From: Streptomyces sp. NBC_00440
GTDB taxonomy: Bacteria; Actinomycetota; Actinomycetes; Streptomycetales; Streptomycetaceae
Assembly (NCBI RefSeq): GCF_036014215.1
Contig: NZ_CP107921.1
Coordinates: 8,243,501 to 8,307,500, forward strand
Direction: 5' to 3'
Length of the DNA: 64,000 nucleotides
The notes beneath the pieces are model-generated. The model made no database searches. It was given only the letters and a program-made list of their open reading frames with translations, and was not told the DNA's origin. Shown one piece after another: positions 1 to 10,504 of this stretch (the stretch's first letter is position 1; each line of letters opens with the position of its first letter). Both the position numbers and the translations under genes were made by a program.

Positions 1-1082
1 GCGCCGTAGCGCGCGACGGCGGCGCCGCGACGGACGGCGATGTAGGCGGTACAGGCAGTCGAGCGGAAGTTCATCGACACCCGGCCCTCCGTCTGTCCGA
101 TCTGTTCGAGCGACGTTTGCGGGTCGCCGTCGCTGACCTGCCGCAGATGGCCGTCGCTGTGGACGTAGTGGCCCGGGGAGAAGCCGGTCACACGCTGTAC
201 CAGCAGGTGGCAGGAGAAGTCGGTGAACGGCGCCGCGGCGAGGGCGGCGCCGAGATCGGTGAGCAGTGCTTTCGGTGAGAGCACCGGTTCCGGGTCGAAC
301 AGCGCGGCGCCGGAGTGGCGGGCACGGAGCACGGAGGCCAGGTCGGGCGGGGGCCAGGACCGGTCGCCCGGATGCTTCACGGGCTGCAGGATCTCCAGAT
401 AGCCCATCGGGTGTTCCGCCCCGGCGGGCAGCAGGTTCGCGCAGAGGCCGTGCAGTGTCTCCTGGTCCTGTCCTGGCCGGGTACGCAGGCCGAGTGCGGC
501 GGCGACCAGGTGCACCGCGCCCAGCAGCATTCCTGCCTCCTGGGCGCACAGCCGCGGGGCGTAGTCGCCGTAGAGCCGTGCCGTCCGGGCGAACCGGCTG
601 GTGATCACGGCGAACCGGGAGTCCCCGGGGTCAGCGGCCTGACGGCTGGTCACTGATGCGGTCTGCATGATCAGTTGATGGTGGAGAGGGTCGAACCGGA
701 ATGCCGCGGTGGGGGAGACCAGGGTGAGTTCGCTCGGGTAGCGGCACCGTGCGGAGGCCACCGCGCGGTGAAGCGGCCAGCCGCCCGGGGTCAGGTCGTG
801 CTGGAGCAGACCGTAGGAGTAGTGCAGCAGCGCGGAGAGGACGGCCGGGTCGGCGAGGGTGGCCGGGGAGCCGGGGGCGGGCGCCAGATGGAGCGGTGGC
901 GGCGCCAGTGGAAGGCGCGGCCCGTGGGGGAGGAGGCCGGGCTCCGCGCTGCCCGTTCCCGGCGCAGGGGATCCCGTGGCGAGGGTGGCCGGGATGGCCC
1001 TGCGGGAGTAGACCGCCTCCGCCCAGAGCGCCAGGGGAAACGGGTTCTCGCCTGCGAGGCTGCGAGGTGTCCCGTCGGTCAT
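1..1082 (-). CDS. SagB-type azoline dehydrogenase (partial, runs off left edge)
   Basis: This is probably the FMN-dependent nitroreductase-fold enzyme that oxidises azolines to azoles in TOMM/thiopeptide pathways. The reverse-strand frame is open from an ATG at 1082 to the window edge, about 360 residues. It shows SagB-like features: a tyrosine-containing SYGLLQ segment, an R-Y-P-S-E-L strand, a middle stretch RFARTARLYGDYAPRLCAQE followed by an alanine-rich helix, and MNFRSTA near the edge. Its start overlaps the stop of the upstream leader-binding gene by four bases (ATGA), so the two are translationally coupled. The 3' end and the expected YcaO cyclodehydratase lie outside the window. Family call is from motif recognition only. 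Confidence 0.78.
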   Translation of the reverse strand, partial: MTDGTPRSLAGENPFPLALWAEAVYSRRAIPATLATGSPAPGTGSAEPGLLPHGPRLPLAPPPLHLAPAPGSPATLADPAVLSALLHYSYGLLQHDLTPGGWPLHRAVASARCRYPSELTLVSPTAAFRFDPLHHQLIMQTASVTSRQAADPGDSRFAVITSRFARTARLYGDYAPRLCAQEAGMLLGAVHLVAAALGLRTRPGQDQETLHGLCANLLPAGAEHPMGYLEILQPVKHPGDRSWPPPDLASVLRARHSGAALFDPEPVLSPKALLTDLGAALAAAPFTDFSCHLLVQRVTGFSPGHYVHSDGHLRQVSDGDPQTSLEQIGQTEGRVSMNFRSTACTAYIAVRRGAAVARYG

Positions 1083-2098
1083 CCCGGCTCCGCGCCGAGA
1101 AAGCGGCCGGTGGTCAGGTCCAGCACCTCGGCATCGGTCACCGGTGACGGTGCTGTGCCCCCGCCGGAGTTGTCCAGACCGGCCGTCCGGTGCAGCAGGT
1201 GCAGGCAGAGCTGGTTGGCGGCGAGGGCCGCGACCGGGCCACCGAGGTACGGACTCGGCTCACGCACGCGAGCCGGATCCCCCGCACGCGCGGCGCCCGC
1301 CGCGGGGTCATCGCGCCCACTGCCGGGCGGTACGCAGGAGGCCGGTGGCTCTGGCGCGGCGCCGGGGTCACCCACTGTGCTGATCACGATGTGCGCGCCC
1401 CGCCCCACCGCCTGTCCGTACGGAACCCCGGCACGTATCGCGAGCGCGCGGGCCTCGTCCGCCGGCTCCCTCTCGTACACGTCAGAGCCGAGAAGCACCA
1501 CGCCGGCGTCCGCGGGCAGGCCGGACAGGTTTCCGCTCAGCTGCTGGTAGCGGAAGCACCCGCCCTCCTGCTGGAGCAACGCGACACATTCGCGCAGCCG
1601 TGCCACATCTGCCGGGTCCCCAAAACCCTCCTCCACTGTGCGCAGCCGCAGGCGCACATGTGCCACACCCGACGCGAGCAGGGCCAGGACCAGCGCACTT
1701 GCCATCCGTCCGGTGCCGACCACCAGGGGAGCGCAATCGCGATACCGCTCGAAGCGGTGCTCGGGCGAGTCCGCGCGCGCCGCGATGAAGTCGATCAGTG
1801 CGGCGTGGCGCGCACGGACCTGCGCGCTCAGCCCGTGTGGCAGATCCGCCGTGGCATCGCGTACGAACCCTTCCCGGGCCAGCAGTTCCACCAGTGAGCG
1901 GACATGCTGCGCGGCCTGTGGCGGGAGGTCGGAGGTGAGCTGGTCCAGGCTGCTGCGACCGTCCAGGAACGGCCGCAGCCGCTCCAGCCACGGGTGGATT
2001 CCCGGCAGTGCGAAGGCCGCCGTGCGCTGGGGGCCACTGATCACCACGCCCCGGTCGGAGGGCAGCAGACGGGTGTCGGGAAGCAGCCTCGGCTTCAT
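1079..2098 (-). CDS. Ocin-ThiF-like TOMM leader-peptide-binding protein
   Basis: Predicted partner of a YcaO cyclodehydratase that binds the precursor leader, like the F protein of thiopeptide clusters. The N-terminal ~90 residues look like an RRE fold (PSDRGVVISGP, then LDQLTSDLPPQ and a winged-helix-like stretch). A degenerate ThiF/E1 Rossmann segment follows near residue 130 (VVGTGRMASALVLALLASG). No adenylation arginine finger or catalytic cysteine motif of true E1 enzymes is evident, as expected for this family. ATG at 2098 is preferred over 2110 because GGAGG lies just upstream of it. The gene is divergent from the precursor peptide and coupled to the SagB gene by an ATGA overlap. Confidence 0.78.
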   Translation of the reverse strand: MKPRLLPDTRLLPSDRGVVISGPQRTAAFALPGIHPWLERLRPFLDGRSSLDQLTSDLPPQAAQHVRSLVELLAREGFVRDATADLPHGLSAQVRARHAALIDFIAARADSPEHRFERYRDCAPLVVGTGRMASALVLALLASGVAHVRLRLRTVEEGFGDPADVARLRECVALLQQEGGCFRYQQLSGNLSGLPADAGVVLLGSDVYEREPADEARALAIRAGVPYGQAVGRGAHIVISTVGDPGAAPEPPASCVPPGSGRDDPAAGAARAGDPARVREPSPYLGGPVAALAANQLCLHLLHRTAGLDNSGGGTAPSPVTDAEVLDLTTGRFLGAEPG

Positions 2099-2321
2099 GA
2101 CCACCTCCATCGGGATTCCTCAGCGGGAACGCGGTTCCGCAGGCGTGAACAGGCGTGAAAGCGCCGGACGAAGCTGTGCTCGCGGCCTCTGGGCGGCCGA
2201 CACTAGCGGAGCCGAATGGTCTAGTCCATCCCCTTCACAGTTCCCAACTGTCACGCTAGTGTCCGAACTGGGCGCCCAAACATGTCTGTTGATGCTCCAT
2301 TAGTTCGAAAGGAGGGCTTTG
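2099..2321. promoter_or_regulatory. Divergent promoter region between RiPP enzymes and precursor
   Basis: This 223-bp spacer must hold both promoters. It contains a perfect 10-bp inverted repeat, GACACTAGCG at 2199-2208 and CGCTAGTGTC at 2254-2263. Inside it is a short palindrome, CAGTTcccAACTG at 2238-2250. The nested symmetry suggests an operator for a cluster regulator outside the window; that function is inference. The last bases carry the precursor ribosome-binding site, AAAGGAGGG at 2308-2316. Confidence 0.55.
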
Positions 2322-2513
2322 ATGAACGAGAACAGCAACGGTTCACCGTCGCTCGCTGCCGCGGTCGCCGACCTCGCACTGGACCTCGACCTGGGCTCGC
2401 TGGCCGGGGACGAGCACAGCCAGTCGCTGACGGCGGGTCACGGCATGACGGAAGCGAGTGCGTCCTTCTGCTGCGCTCCGCCGCCGAACTGCTGCAACTG
2501 CAGCTGTTCCTGA
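2322..2513 (+). CDS. Thiopeptide-like RiPP precursor peptide
   Basis: This 63-residue peptide starts at an ATG with an excellent AAAGGAGGG site five bases upstream; the in-frame TTG just before it is not needed. An acidic leader (residues ~1-47) contains LDLDLGSLAG and ends in SLTAGHGMTEASA. That stretch closely matches the leader ends of thiomuracin/GE2270-type precursors as I remember them. Cleavage after that alanine would give the core SFCCAPPPNCCNCSCS with six cysteines and three serines. The C-S-C-S ending mirrors the pyridine-forming serine plus tail of thiopeptides. The PPP insert and Phe instead of Cys after the first Ser are unusual. Identity as a RiPP precursor is well supported by neighbours; macrocycle formation is inferred. 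Confidence 0.85.
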   Translation: MNENSNGSPSLAAAVADLALDLDLGSLAGDEHSQSLTAGHGMTEASASFCCAPPPNCCNCSCS

Positions 2514-2555: not shown

Positions 2556-2720
2556 GTCCGCCCCGGTGGCCCGCTGATCACCGCACTCGTCGAGGAACCC
2601 TTCTGTCACCCTTCTGACTCTGCCTCTGCAGCTGCCTCGTCGCGGCGCGTACGAGCGCAGGACGAGGCAGAGGCACCGGTACCGGCGATTGCGCGTCCAG
2701 GGGGGCCGTCGGACACATCG

Positions 2721-3110
2721 ATGGACGGCCTTGCAGTGGTGCAAGGGCCGGTGATCCGTAGTCTGCCTGGTATGGGGCGCCATGCTCGGAGCCACCTTCT
2801 TCGCTGCCACCGGCGGAGATATGGAAGCCATCGGCACTCCCGACCGGCTGGCGGCATTCGCCGGCCTGTCGCCGGTTGTGACGACCAAGCCGCTATCACC
2901 GCGGCCTCCTGCGGGCCTTCTGCCTCTCGTCCATGGCCAGCCTGCGATCTCGTGCCCGCATCGCGGACGTACTACGAACGCAAGCGCGCCGAAGGGAAAT
3001 GACACAAGCAGGCCGTGCTCTCGCTCGCCCGCCGCAGAGCCAATGTTCTGTGGGCCATGACCCGCGACGGAGCGTGCTATCAAGCCGCACCACCATTCAC
3101 GGCGGCCGCT
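2721..3110 (+). pseudogene. IS110-family transposase C-terminal remnant
   Basis: Fragments of the conserved IS110 C-terminal domain appear in successive frames: an IRSLPGMG piece near 2750, then GATFFAATGGDMEAIGTPDR and LAAFAGLSPVV to about 2880, then YYERKRAEGK and KQAVLSLARRRANVLWAM to about 3070. At least two frame changes separate them and the N-terminal RuvC-like DEDD domain is absent, so the copy is dead. The stretch from the terminator to 2720 shows nothing recognisable. Confidence 0.65.
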
Positions 3111-3205
3111 TGATTTCCTGATTGGGAAGTCATTTAAGGCTCGCGCTCAGTCTGGGAGACTGGAACTCCGGGGGCATGACGCATCGCATCGAGTCCGAAT
3201 AGGTA

Positions 3206-8004: not shown

Positions 8005-8448
8005 GTGAGTCTGATCGAGGTGGTTCCTGGGCAGGTCGAGCTCGTCGTTCGGGGAGCGGGGTCACAAGCCCCCTCTATCCGGTTGTCCGACTGGTCGCGG
8101 ACTGATGAGTTCGAGGTGGTATTCGCCGTGGAGGCCGTCGATGACGGCCTGCACGCACGGGTCGAGTCCGTGACGGTGTCTGCCTGGGACGGTGCGGGAT
8201 ACCTGACCGAGTTTCTCGACGGTCTTGCGCGCGGCTTCCCCGGTTGGGAGGGCGAGCGGTCTTGGGTCAACAACGAGCTGGTCGTGACAGCGACGTTCGG
8301 TTCAGGCGGTCACGTGTGTCTGAGCTGGACCCTGCGAGCGGACGTCTTCTCCAACGGCTGGGAGTGCACTGTGACGACCATGATTGAGGCCGGCGAAGAG
8401 CTGACGACTGTTGCTGCCGACGTGCGGGAATTCTTCTGCCAGGGGTAG
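8005..8448 (+). CDS. DUF6228 family protein
   Basis: A 147-residue protein of unknown function. The family pattern is visible: VELVVRGAGSQAP, then FAVEAVDDGLHARVE, SAWDGAGYLTEFLDGLARGF, GWEGERSWVNNELVVTA and GGHVCLSWTLRAD. These proteins are small, often near contact-dependent or phage-defence islands, but nothing here fixes a role. GTG at 8005 is the best family-compatible start; no strong ribosome site is seen. The stop is followed within 40 bases by an integrase remnant on the other strand. Confidence 0.65.
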   Translation: MSLIEVVPGQVELVVRGAGSQAPSIRLSDWSRTDEFEVVFAVEAVDDGLHARVESVTVSAWDGAGYLTEFLDGLARGFPGWEGERSWVNNELVVTATFGSGGHVCLSWTLRADVFSNGWECTVTTMIEAGEELTTVAADVREFFCQG

Positions 8449-8485
8449 TCGTCCCAAGGCCCCGAAGTGGGGCACTCACGCGCTC

Positions 8486-8815
8486 TCAGGCTCTCGGAAC
8501 TGGAGGGCTCCCAACTTCGCTGGTTCCCCGTGGAATCCAGCCTGTTGGTGACTTTGCATGATCTCCTGGGGTGTATCGGCTCCATGTCCCGCCGATCTCA
8601 TTGCGGAGGCGGCTGGTGGTCTTGTCGTGGTAGCCGAGAGCGTCCGCGACGACGGGTGCGGGAAATTCGAGGAGTTGCTGCCGCATGGCGGCGCCGCGGG
8701 CGGCCGCAGTCGGGACCCCGGCTTGGTTCAAGAGCGCGGACAGGTGGTCGGGGCGGGCCGGCTGCCCCGACCGGCGACCCGGGAAGAGCCAGCGGGACGC
8801 GGAGTTGGTGGCAGT
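8486..8815 (-). pseudogene. Tyrosine-recombinase (integrase) C-terminal remnant
   Basis: The reverse strand carries the end of a tyrosine-type integrase found in Streptomyces elements: WLFPGRRSGQPARPDHL, then RGAAMRQQLLEFPAPVVADA, LGYHDKTTSRL and TWSRYTPGDH. The conserved catalytic Arg/His box and most of the protein are missing upstream. The remnant abuts an aminotransferase fragment at about 8810, which marks a recombination junction. Confidence 0.6.
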
Positions 8816-9246
8816 TGGCTGCGCTACCAGCTCTCCGGGATCAACGCAGCCATCGGCCTGGCCCAGCTCGACCACTTCGACACGACCGTGGAGACCCGGC
8901 GAGGCCTGTGGTGCACCTACCGGACGCCCTGGGCCCGCTGGAGGGCGTGACGCTCGTGGACGTCGGCCCACAGCCGGCTGTACCGCACCTGTGCCAGGTC
9001 CGCGTCCCTCAACGCGACCAGATGTTTACGGAGATGCGATCCCGGGAGGTCGGCGTCGGGGTCCACTACCCGCCCAACCAACTGCAGCCCGCGTTCGCGC
9101 CCTGGCGGCGGCCACTGCCCGTCACTGAGAAGGCTGGGCAGGAACTCCTGAGCCTGCCCTTCCACCAGCACCTGACCGAAGACGACATCCACCACGTGGT
9201 GTCCGCCCTCGGCCAGGCCGTCGAGACAGCGAGGGCTGAGCGGTGA
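8810..9246 (+). pseudogene. DegT/DnrJ/EryC1/StrS aminotransferase C-terminal remnant
   Basis: The C-terminal third of a sugar aminotransferase of the PLP-dependent StrS type is recognisable: RYQLSGINAAIGLAQLDHFD, then EGVTLVDVG, PHLCQVRVPQRDQMF, VGVGVHYPPNQLQPAF and LLSLPFHQHLTEDDIHHVV. Restoring one missing base near 8928 joins the two frames (CTYR to DALGPLEG). The PLP-lysine domain is absent. The gene is truncated at an integrase remnant and frameshifted, hence dead. It may once have worked on nucleotide-sugar substrates with the neighbouring MurG-like enzyme, which is only an inference from adjacency. Confidence 0.7.
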
Positions 9247-9328
9247 ACATCCTGACGGTGTGCGCCGCGCTGATCGAGACAGGCACGGCGCTGCGCCTGC
9301 GGCCGCCTGGCGTAACACCCCGCCCCGG

Positions 9329-10504
9329 TCAGCCGGATGCGGCGGACAGGATCACGTCCACGAGCCTGTCCGCCGCATCCGGCCTCCCGTGCGCCCGCGC
9401 CCGCTCCGCCATTGCCTCACGCCGTGCCGGGTCGGTGAGGAGCGGGCCCACCGCGTCCCGCAGGTTCGCACCGGTCGGCTCACCGAGCAGGGCCACTGCC
9501 GCCCGCGCCTCCTCAAGGTGGCGGGCGTTGTGCGCCTGCTCGTTCCCGGCCGAGGACGCCAGCGGGATGAACACGGCCGGCTTTCCCAACGCGGTGAGTT
9601 CGGCGAGTGTGCCCGCCCCGCTCCGTGAGATCACGACGTCGGCCAGAGCCAGGACATCGGGGAGTTCCGGGCCCACGAACCCAGTGAGGTGGTACCGGCC
9701 CGCCAGCTCCGGAGACAGGACAGCCGCGTCCCGCCGCAGCTCCTCCACGTTGGCGGGCCCGCACTGATGGATCACGTTCGCGTGCCCCAGCAGCCACGGC
9801 AGCACCGCCTTCACCAGCTCGTTGATCTGCTGGGAGCCCTGCGCGCCACCGGTGACATACACCGTCGGCAGCCGCCGGTCGAACTCCTGCAACTCCAGTG
9901 CCTGGAGGGCCTTGTCCGCGTGCCCCGCCAGCACCTCGGGCCGGATCGGGTTACCCGTCACCACCGCGGCGCCGCGCACCGAGTCCGGCAGCAGCGGCAG
10001 CGACGACTCCGAGGAGACCGCGATTCGCGTCGCGGAACTCGCGAGCTTCCGGTTGGCCAGGCCGAGCCGGACCGTCTGCTCGTGCAGGACCAGCGGGCGC
10101 CGGCACAGCCGTGCGGCCAGCCCAGCCGGGACTGCGACGTATCCGCCCGTCGCCAGGACCACGTCCGGATGGAAGGCTGACACGATCGACCGGGCCTGAG
10201 CCACGCCGAGCGGCACCCGCGCCATGTCCCGCACGTTCGCGGCGGACAGCATCTTGAGCGGATTCGAAGAGCGGCGGATCTTCCCCGTGGACACCGTCTT
10301 GAACTCGATGCCCTCTGCCGGGGCGACACGCGCTTCGAGACCGTCCGCCGTGCCGATCCACAGGACATCCAGCGTGCTGCCCGCGTCTGCGAGGCGGCCT
10401 TGCAGCGTACGGATCGCTGTCAGGGCCGGGTAGGTGTGTCCGCCAGTGCCTCCGCCCGTCACGAGCAGCCGGAACGAACGCGGTAGCACGGAGGAAGTGT
10501 TCAC
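9329..10504 (-). CDS. murG: MurG-like UDP-GlcNAc transferase
   Basis: Predicted glycosyltransferase of the MurG family, which adds GlcNAc to lipid I on the inner membrane face. The N-terminal GGGTGGHTYPAL glycine loop, the FHPDVVLATGGYVAVPAGL strand, HEQTVRLGLANRKL, the GGAQGSQQIN donor-domain loop, SRSGAGTLAELTALGKPAVF and NEQAHNA are all present. Length (391 residues from GTG 10504) is normal for MurG; a GTG at 10528 is an alternative start. It lies outside any mur/fts cluster, so it is probably an accessory paralogue, perhaps for a cell-wall variant or natural product. The paralogue role is inference. Confidence 0.8.
   Translation of the reverse strand: MNTSSVLPRSFRLLVTGGGTGGHTYPALTAIRTLQGRLADAGSTLDVLWIGTADGLEARVAPAEGIEFKTVSTGKIRRSSNPLKMLSAANVRDMARVPLGVAQARSIVSAFHPDVVLATGGYVAVPAGLAARLCRRPLVLHEQTVRLGLANRKLASSATRIAVSSESSLPLLPDSVRGAAVVTGNPIRPEVLAGHADKALQALELQEFDRRLPTVYVTGGAQGSQQINELVKAVLPWLLGHANVIHQCGPANVEELRRDAAVLSPELAGRYHLTGFVGPELPDVLALADVVISRSGAGTLAELTALGKPAVFIPLASSAGNEQAHNARHLEEARAAVALLGEPTGANLRDAVGPLLTDPARREAMAERARAHGRPDAADRLVDVILSAASG

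Follow-up and report, generated by a model that had tools for sequence, protein, structure and literature searches.

Natural thiopeptide rings have been listed as 26-, 29- or 35-membered, with the thiomuracin-type class being 29-membered, and ring size tracks the target, 26-membered rings going with the L11 region and 29-membered rings with EF-Tu, while the target of the 35-membered class is given as unknown (PMC3917276). According to the excerpt of PMC7210931 every known thiopeptide falls within 26–35 atoms, lactazole having a 32-membered ring with an unmodified Trp2. Rings beyond 35 atoms are nevertheless chemically reachable, since engineered thiopeptides of the lactazole type span 14–62 atoms (PMC7210931) and engineered pyritides 14–68 atoms (PMC9247985). 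On the regulatory side, the operator of DasR (dre) has the consensus A(G/C)TGGTCTAGACCA(G/C)T (PMC4398421). The same paper describes a dre upstream of scr5239 whose core reads 5'-TGGTCTAGTCCA; this site is conserved among streptomycetes, and in EMSA DasR bound it as it did the dasA control.

Here we describe a conserved nine-gene cluster whose precursor gene lies near the left end of a window of 64,000 nucleotides from Streptomyces sp. NBC_00440 (G000:C1:8243501-8307500, the window being the whole stretch of DNA that was analysed). Our main reading, to which we give a probability of roughly 70%, is that the cluster would make a 38-atom, pyridine-closed macrocycle with six thiazoles, and that DasR probably keeps it silent as long as chitin and N-acetylglucosamine are lacking.

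A nine-gene cluster around a thiomuracin-type precursor

The precursor (Table 1) matches NCBIfam NF033399, the thiomuracin/GE37468 family, at 37.5 bits (cut-off 29), and by sequence is of the thiomuracin/GE37468 type. A search over 5.8 billion proteins left 13 scored candidates, 12 of them precursor homologues, and 16 other genomes carry the precursor (15 of these with the whole cluster); the reading frame is therefore not a chance one. Directly behind it, at window 2720–3120, lie broken ORFs that, judged by eye, resemble a transposase remnant.

Most of the cluster lies left of the window, where F2, E2, B, C, D, E, F and G run in that order, divergent from the precursor. All eight have Pfam or NCBIfam matches, B being without one in NCBIfam. 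The pyridine synthase D also matches the solved structures of TbtD (5wa3, E 6.3e-55) and PbtD (5w98, E 1e-53), and 71 residues are identical across its 16 orthologues, TbtD and PbtD. The YcaO gene gave a match of 268 bits at the cluster in the genome search; elsewhere in the genome two further YcaO genes lie near each other (G000:C1:5879963-5885336; L002, L003, L149). F and F2 match the N-terminal part of TIGR03693 only, F2 with E 3e-24 and 85.3 bits, far below the whole-protein cut-off of 561.9; its predicted structure (pLDDT 62) is of low confidence and unfit for interpretation. E2 matches TIGR03605 with E 2.4e-17 and 63 bits, under the cut-off of 78.4. The model of P0048, a protein 92% identical to E2, has a pLDDT of 82.7 and resembles nitroreductase-fold proteins, with 3eo7 as top match and ThcOx and McbC among the matches. 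Among the best 7994 candidates scored, E2 has 38 homologues at 43–92% identity (P0048–P0085), followed by remote SagB proteins.

Table 1. Features of the cluster. Positions are those of the window unless marked L005 (L005 coordinate = window position + 13500).
Feature	Position	Strand	Length or sequence	Basis or remark
Second SagB-type dehydrogenase, E2	1..1082, continuing to L005:13278	-	434 aa	
Second ocin-ThiF-like protein, F2	1079..2110	-	343 aa	N-terminal RRE like PbtF (8t19, E 2.8e-11)
Predicted DasR operator (dre), in the region separating the precursor from the enzyme operon	2217..2228	+	TGGTCTAGTCCA	invariant in 16/16 clusters
Ribosome-binding site	2309..2316	+	AAGGAGGG	sequence; five bases 5' of precursor ATG
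Precursor gene	2322..2513	+	63 aa + stop	leader residues 1-47, core residues 48-63
Core	2463..2510	+	SFCCAPPPNCCNCSCS	sequence and codon-by-codon conservation in 16 clusters; chemistry predicted
Core Ser14 codon, predicted ring-closing residue	2502..2504	+	AGC	AGC in 16/16 clusters; GGC (Gly) in the G150 orphan
LanB glutamylation protein, B	L005 10585-13278		897 aa	PF04738
Elimination protein, C	L005 9527-10591		354 aa	PF14028 and TIGR03891
Pyridine synthase, D	L005 about 8232-9467		about 411 aa	NF045556, 431.6 bits (cut-off 325)
SagB-type dehydrogenase, E	L005 6934-8235		433 aa	TIGR03605, 110.2 bits (cut-off 78.4)
ocin-ThiF/RRE protein, F	L005 5475-6884		469 aa	partial TIGR03693
YcaO protein, G	L005 3503-5482		659 aa	TIGR03604, 334.6 bits (cut-off 219.25); TIGR03882, 126 bits (cut-off 36.9)

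Homologues are thus present for each part of a thiopeptide system: a precursor, a YcaO with an ocin-ThiF/RRE partner, an FMN azoline dehydrogenase, a split LanB and a [4+2] pyridine synthase. Judged by homology, the enzymes suffice for a complete thiopeptide scaffold; the presence of the YcaO G sets the cluster apart from the pyritides without azoles. Protease, transporter, regulator and resistance genes are absent from the nine conserved genes, and Rfam at its gathering thresholds gave no match over 19 kb. An earlier note on this DNA had described a 63-residue thiopeptide-like precursor with SagB-type and ocin-ThiF-like neighbours and had suggested looking leftwards for YcaO, LanB-like dehydratase and pyridine synthase genes. 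Our translation of the ORF is identical, E2 and F2 adjoin the precursor, and the family match together with the complete enzyme set alongside bears out the class; all the genes looked for were found, the YcaO and pyridine synthase at some 4 to 10 kb beyond the left edge of the window.

Distribution across genomes

Searches for the precursor (alignment A1), in overlapping draws, gave matches in 12 of 392 genomes (5 kept), 12 of 394, 7 of 391, 4 of 150 and 3 of 295. The seven first-draw matches that were dropped (L014–L020, E 2.3e-6 to 3.1e-4) were without the GHGMTE leader in a motif scan, which gave three chance motif matches in L019 and L020. With the duplicates L006, L007 and L008 counted once (as G304, G454 and G704), the precursor is found in 17 distinct genomes from five genus-level groups of actinomycetes. 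In sixteen of them the nine genes are all present and identically ordered, the seventeenth (G150) having an orphan precursor; a plasmid search gave no match.

Orthologue identity to the window proteins reaches, gene by gene, minima of 42–60% and maxima of 79–94%. D (58–91%) is among the best conserved enzymes, a higher minimum being seen for the YcaO only. In one genome, listed as 76% complete (G454; L040/L007), B, C, E and G are split over several stretches or frames, owing either to sequencing errors or to decay. In the few kilobases of flank examined, no gene is common to more than three of the 16 loci; small ORFs occur near the YcaO end in three.

A near-invariant core peptide

In the 16 clusters the family core is S-F/Y-CCAPPPNCCNCSCS, present as SFCCAPPPNCCNCSCS in 14 and as SYCCAPPPNCCNCSCS in two. 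Seven of its 16 codons vary silently over these clusters and a single one changes the residue (Phe2/Tyr2); the protein collection adds Thr12 in one further member (P0009) and Gly14 in two (P0010, P0013). So nearly frozen a core suggests strong selection for one molecule. We predict thiazoles from Cys3, 4, 10, 11, 13 and 15, a pyridine from Ser1 and Ser14, and a dehydroalanine (Dha) from Ser16 within a two-residue tail.

Ser14 is the sole core Ser with Cys on both sides, resembling thiomuracin-type cores. The orphan precursor of G150 (L030, G150:C952, about 2762–2899) has Gly14 and an N-terminally shortened leader, and P0013 fits it. None of the cluster enzymes lies on its 10.6-kb contig, and no gene matching the pyridine synthase model NF045556 was found in this draft genome of 1380 contigs. 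Ser14 is therefore altered where the synthase is missing, in the one case open to examination. The orphan adjoins apparent nucleoside-uptake and thymidine phosphorylase genes. P0010 (Streptomyces NPDC127074), known from its protein alone, carries Gly14 on a full-length leader; a complete cluster around it would speak against the Ser14 reading, since Ser14 would then be dispensable.

Predicted ring size

Closure between Ser1 and Ser n gives a ring of 3(n-1)-1 atoms. For thiomuracin-type cores (Ser11) the rule returns 29, matching the published value, and for the present core (Ser14) it predicts a 38-membered ring. The Ser spacing of the known ring classes (26, 29, 32 and 35) is not found here, as from position 8 onwards Ser14 alone has Cys on both sides. 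In a survey of 31 distinct cores from 47 precursors (P0001–P0047; P0043 unparsable), a Cys-flanked Ser at 14 also occurs in three cores outside this family (P0014, P0027 and P0040); the other cores have it at positions 9 to 13, one has it at 13 and 15, and some are without it. P0014, with the core SFCCVPCTSCCCCSCS behind a thiomuracin-type leader, also combines Phe2 with Ser14 and possibly links both branches.

These data bear on three statements of the earlier note. Its choice of Ser14 as the matching Ser agrees with the single Cys-flanked position, invariant in 16 clusters, from which the 38-membered size is predicted. Its remark that no described thiopeptide has this pattern stands for the ring, which at 38 atoms would exceed the natural 26–35 reported in the excerpt of PMC7210931; it does not stand for the aromatic position 2, precedented by Trp2 of lactazole in the same source, or for the Ser14 spacing, shared by the three cores named above. 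Its proposed comparison with known compounds found the core string absent from the literature searched, to which a 2018 thiopeptide survey did not belong. Searches of that literature, including searches on Kitasatospora thiopeptides, turned up no account of this cluster either; the single paper with both '38-membered' and thiopeptides uses the former term for a macrolide. In the excerpt of PMC7601586 a table row gives 9 'Thiopeptide' clusters for Streptacidiphilus genomes and no further particulars. The present cluster could be among them, and the core may then be already listed. If true, the conservation of a natural 38-membered ring in several genera would extend the series relating ring size to target, no member of that size being described in the excerpts covered.

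A predicted DasR box in the divergent promoter region

The 211-bp intergenic region between the precursor and F2 has TGGTCTAGTCCA as its longest invariant run, with 12 of 12 columns invariant against 14 of 199 elsewhere; an inverted repeat around it (GACACTAGCG arms) occurs in some clusters only. This genome has four exact copies of the 12-mer, none of the palindromic TGGTCTAGACCA and none of the backward-read pattern. The second copy lies 78 bp upstream of a gene for a CBM5/12 protein whose sequence places it among chitinases (its Pfam matches being to the CBM only), and the third 413 bp upstream of nagB, nearer (66 bp) to a PdtaS-like kinase gene on the opposite side. The fourth lies 115 bp upstream of a gene for a chitinase-type protein, with Pfam GH18 just below cut-off and a best PDB chitinase match of E 2.2e-58.

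Beyond this genome, 20 genomes without the precursor all have the box, in 1–5 copies each (51 in total, against 15 of the reversed pattern), and the 15 further cluster genomes together with G150 have 100 copies against 15. At 10 of 30 loci (two overlapping) from the 20 cluster-less genomes the box lies 43–96 bp from dasR-type genes, whose products group with one GntR regulator; this matches PDB entries of DasR (520 bits) and is identified accordingly. The copies near chitinase-type, nagB and dasR-type genes therefore indicate that the box marks the general DasR regulon. An exact box was found at none of 14 comparator loci with pyridine-synthase-like genes, one of which has it with one mismatch, and is absent from the contig of the G150 orphan.

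A DasR orthologue (78–96% identity) is encoded in all 16 cluster genomes, so that, as far as sequence can tell, each combines a predicted dre in the promoter region with DasR in the genome. The cluster is likely to represent a thiopeptide family controlled by chitin or GlcNAc. No DasR site before a thiopeptide precursor was met in the literature excerpts covered, which were drawn together outside a dedicated search. The predicted site points to chitin or GlcNAc as a cue that would induce a cluster without a product in the literature searched.

Alternative products and regulators

Two other products have to be weighed against the Ser1–Ser14 ring. A pyridine formed from Ser1 and the C-terminal Ser16 would give a 44-membered ring ending in a pyridine carboxylic acid, with Ser14 left as Dha or Ser. 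Conservation alone cannot choose between the two residues, because neither Ser14 nor Ser16 varies in the 16 clusters; Ser16 is also kept in the G150 orphan and throughout the wider set of 13 aligned precursors, where it exceeds Ser14, since P0010 and P0013 retain it despite their Gly14. Against this stand the coincidence of Gly14 with a missing pyridine synthase in the one searchable genome, the flanking of the thiomuracin-type Ser (that which fits a 29-membered ring) by Cys on both sides, as for Ser14 and not for Ser16, and the position of Ser16 at the C-terminus, with no following thiazole for placement on the pyridine. We regard closure at Ser16 as very improbable. Scarcely any weight, and the least in this comparison, goes to a linear peptide of azoles and dehydroalanines in which the cycloaddition enzyme would go unused. 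It was the earlier note's own alternative, and no product has been seen so far; it is disfavoured by a pyridine synthase that scores above the cut-off of the curated TbtD/PbtD model and is retained in 16 of 16 clusters. A linear product would moreover need a leader protease, of which the nine conserved genes hold none, whereas a [4+2] product would need none, because D would expel the leader.

As to control, the invariant 12-mer might be a promoter or operator element for another factor, with the cluster outside the DasR regulon. It deviates at one position from the palindromic dre consensus and has non-conserved flanks, and it starts at a distance that varies among clusters from 98 to 143 bp 5' of the precursor ATG. 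We nonetheless hold this to be unlikely, given that the identical 12-mer is named as the DasR-bound core upstream of scr5239 (PMC4398421), that the remaining three genomic copies accompany nagB and two genes of chitinase type, and that the box recurs close to dasR-type genes in genomes without the cluster. Repression by DasR and closure at Ser14 are accordingly the readings kept below.

Two oxidase/RRE pairs

The 14 comparator loci (L069–L082) were scanned with profiles of this family. Seven (L069–L074 and L077) have B, C, D, F and G, the F-type and YcaO genes being single in each. The dehydrogenase resembles E in L069 and L070 and E2 in L071, L074 and L077, the last of which also has an E-like ORF; in L072 and L073 it gave only a weak match. 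In the stretches examined for L075 and L076, B, C and D alone were recognised. L078–L082 are less closely related, and two YcaO genes lie in each of L081 and L082. Each kind of dehydrogenase thus seems to act alone elsewhere, and here both occur together with two RRE proteins. None of the other clusters compared showed two RRE/dehydrogenase pairs alongside a single YcaO. As a guess, the two Cys blocks split by APPPN may each have a pair of their own; the arrangement offers a compact system for asking how two azole blocks per peptide are handled.

Proposed pathway

In our model DasR would repress one or both of the divergent promoters, and its ligand GlcN-6-P, derived from chitin or wall turnover, would release it. 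The RRE proteins F and F2 would then bind and present the leader, the YcaO G would convert Cys3, 4, 10, 11, 13 and 15 to thiazolines, and the FMN dehydrogenases E and E2 would oxidise these. B and C would dehydrate Ser1, Ser14 and Ser16 through glutamylation and elimination, after which D would join Dha1 and Dha14 in a formal [4+2] reaction, make the pyridine and expel the leader as a carboxamide. The main product is computed as C62H59N17O12S6 ([M+H]+ 1426.293), or 1444.303 if Ser16 stays unmodified.

Taken as a whole, a natural 38-membered thiopeptide family with one cyclodehydratase and two leader-binding/oxidase pairs, with a core near-identical across five genus-level groups and wired directly to DasR, is a proposition for which we see even odds. 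Such direct wiring would mean that production is triggered by chitin or cell-wall turnover.

Comparison with known systems

The closest likeness is to the Tbt, Pbt and Get systems (thiomuracin, GE2270 and GE37468), with which the family shares a leader ending in SLTAGHGMTE..A, a Cys-Ser-Cys-Ser core ending, a split LanB dehydratase, a TbtD/PbtD-type pyridine synthase, SagB, an ocin-ThiF F protein and a YcaO. It differs from them in having Ser14 instead of Ser11 (38 predicted atoms instead of 29), Phe/Tyr2 instead of Cys2, an APPPN stretch, a second SagB and ocin-ThiF pair and the DasR-type box. The tailoring genes that we know from those clusters have, to our knowledge, no counterpart here.

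Lactazole (laz) likewise combines a compact cluster with an unmodified aromatic residue at position 2 (Trp2) and an unusual ring size (PMC7210931). Its ring has 32 atoms, however, its LazF fuses the elimination domain and the dehydrogenase, which are separate genes here, and it has one dehydrogenase compared with two. The lactazole leader is also of a different type from that of this family. The largest natural ring so far is that of berninamycin, with 35 atoms according to the excerpt of PMC7210931, and the ring predicted here would be one residue larger. Sulfomycin shares the presence of several RRE/ocin-ThiF and dehydrogenase proteins (PMC10634744), yet has two cyclodehydratases and oxazoles, in contrast to one YcaO and, as predicted, Cys-derived azoles only. 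With the DasR regulon, known for its dre at chi and nag genes, the cluster shares a 12-mer identical to the scr5239 dre core, in genomes that encode DasR.
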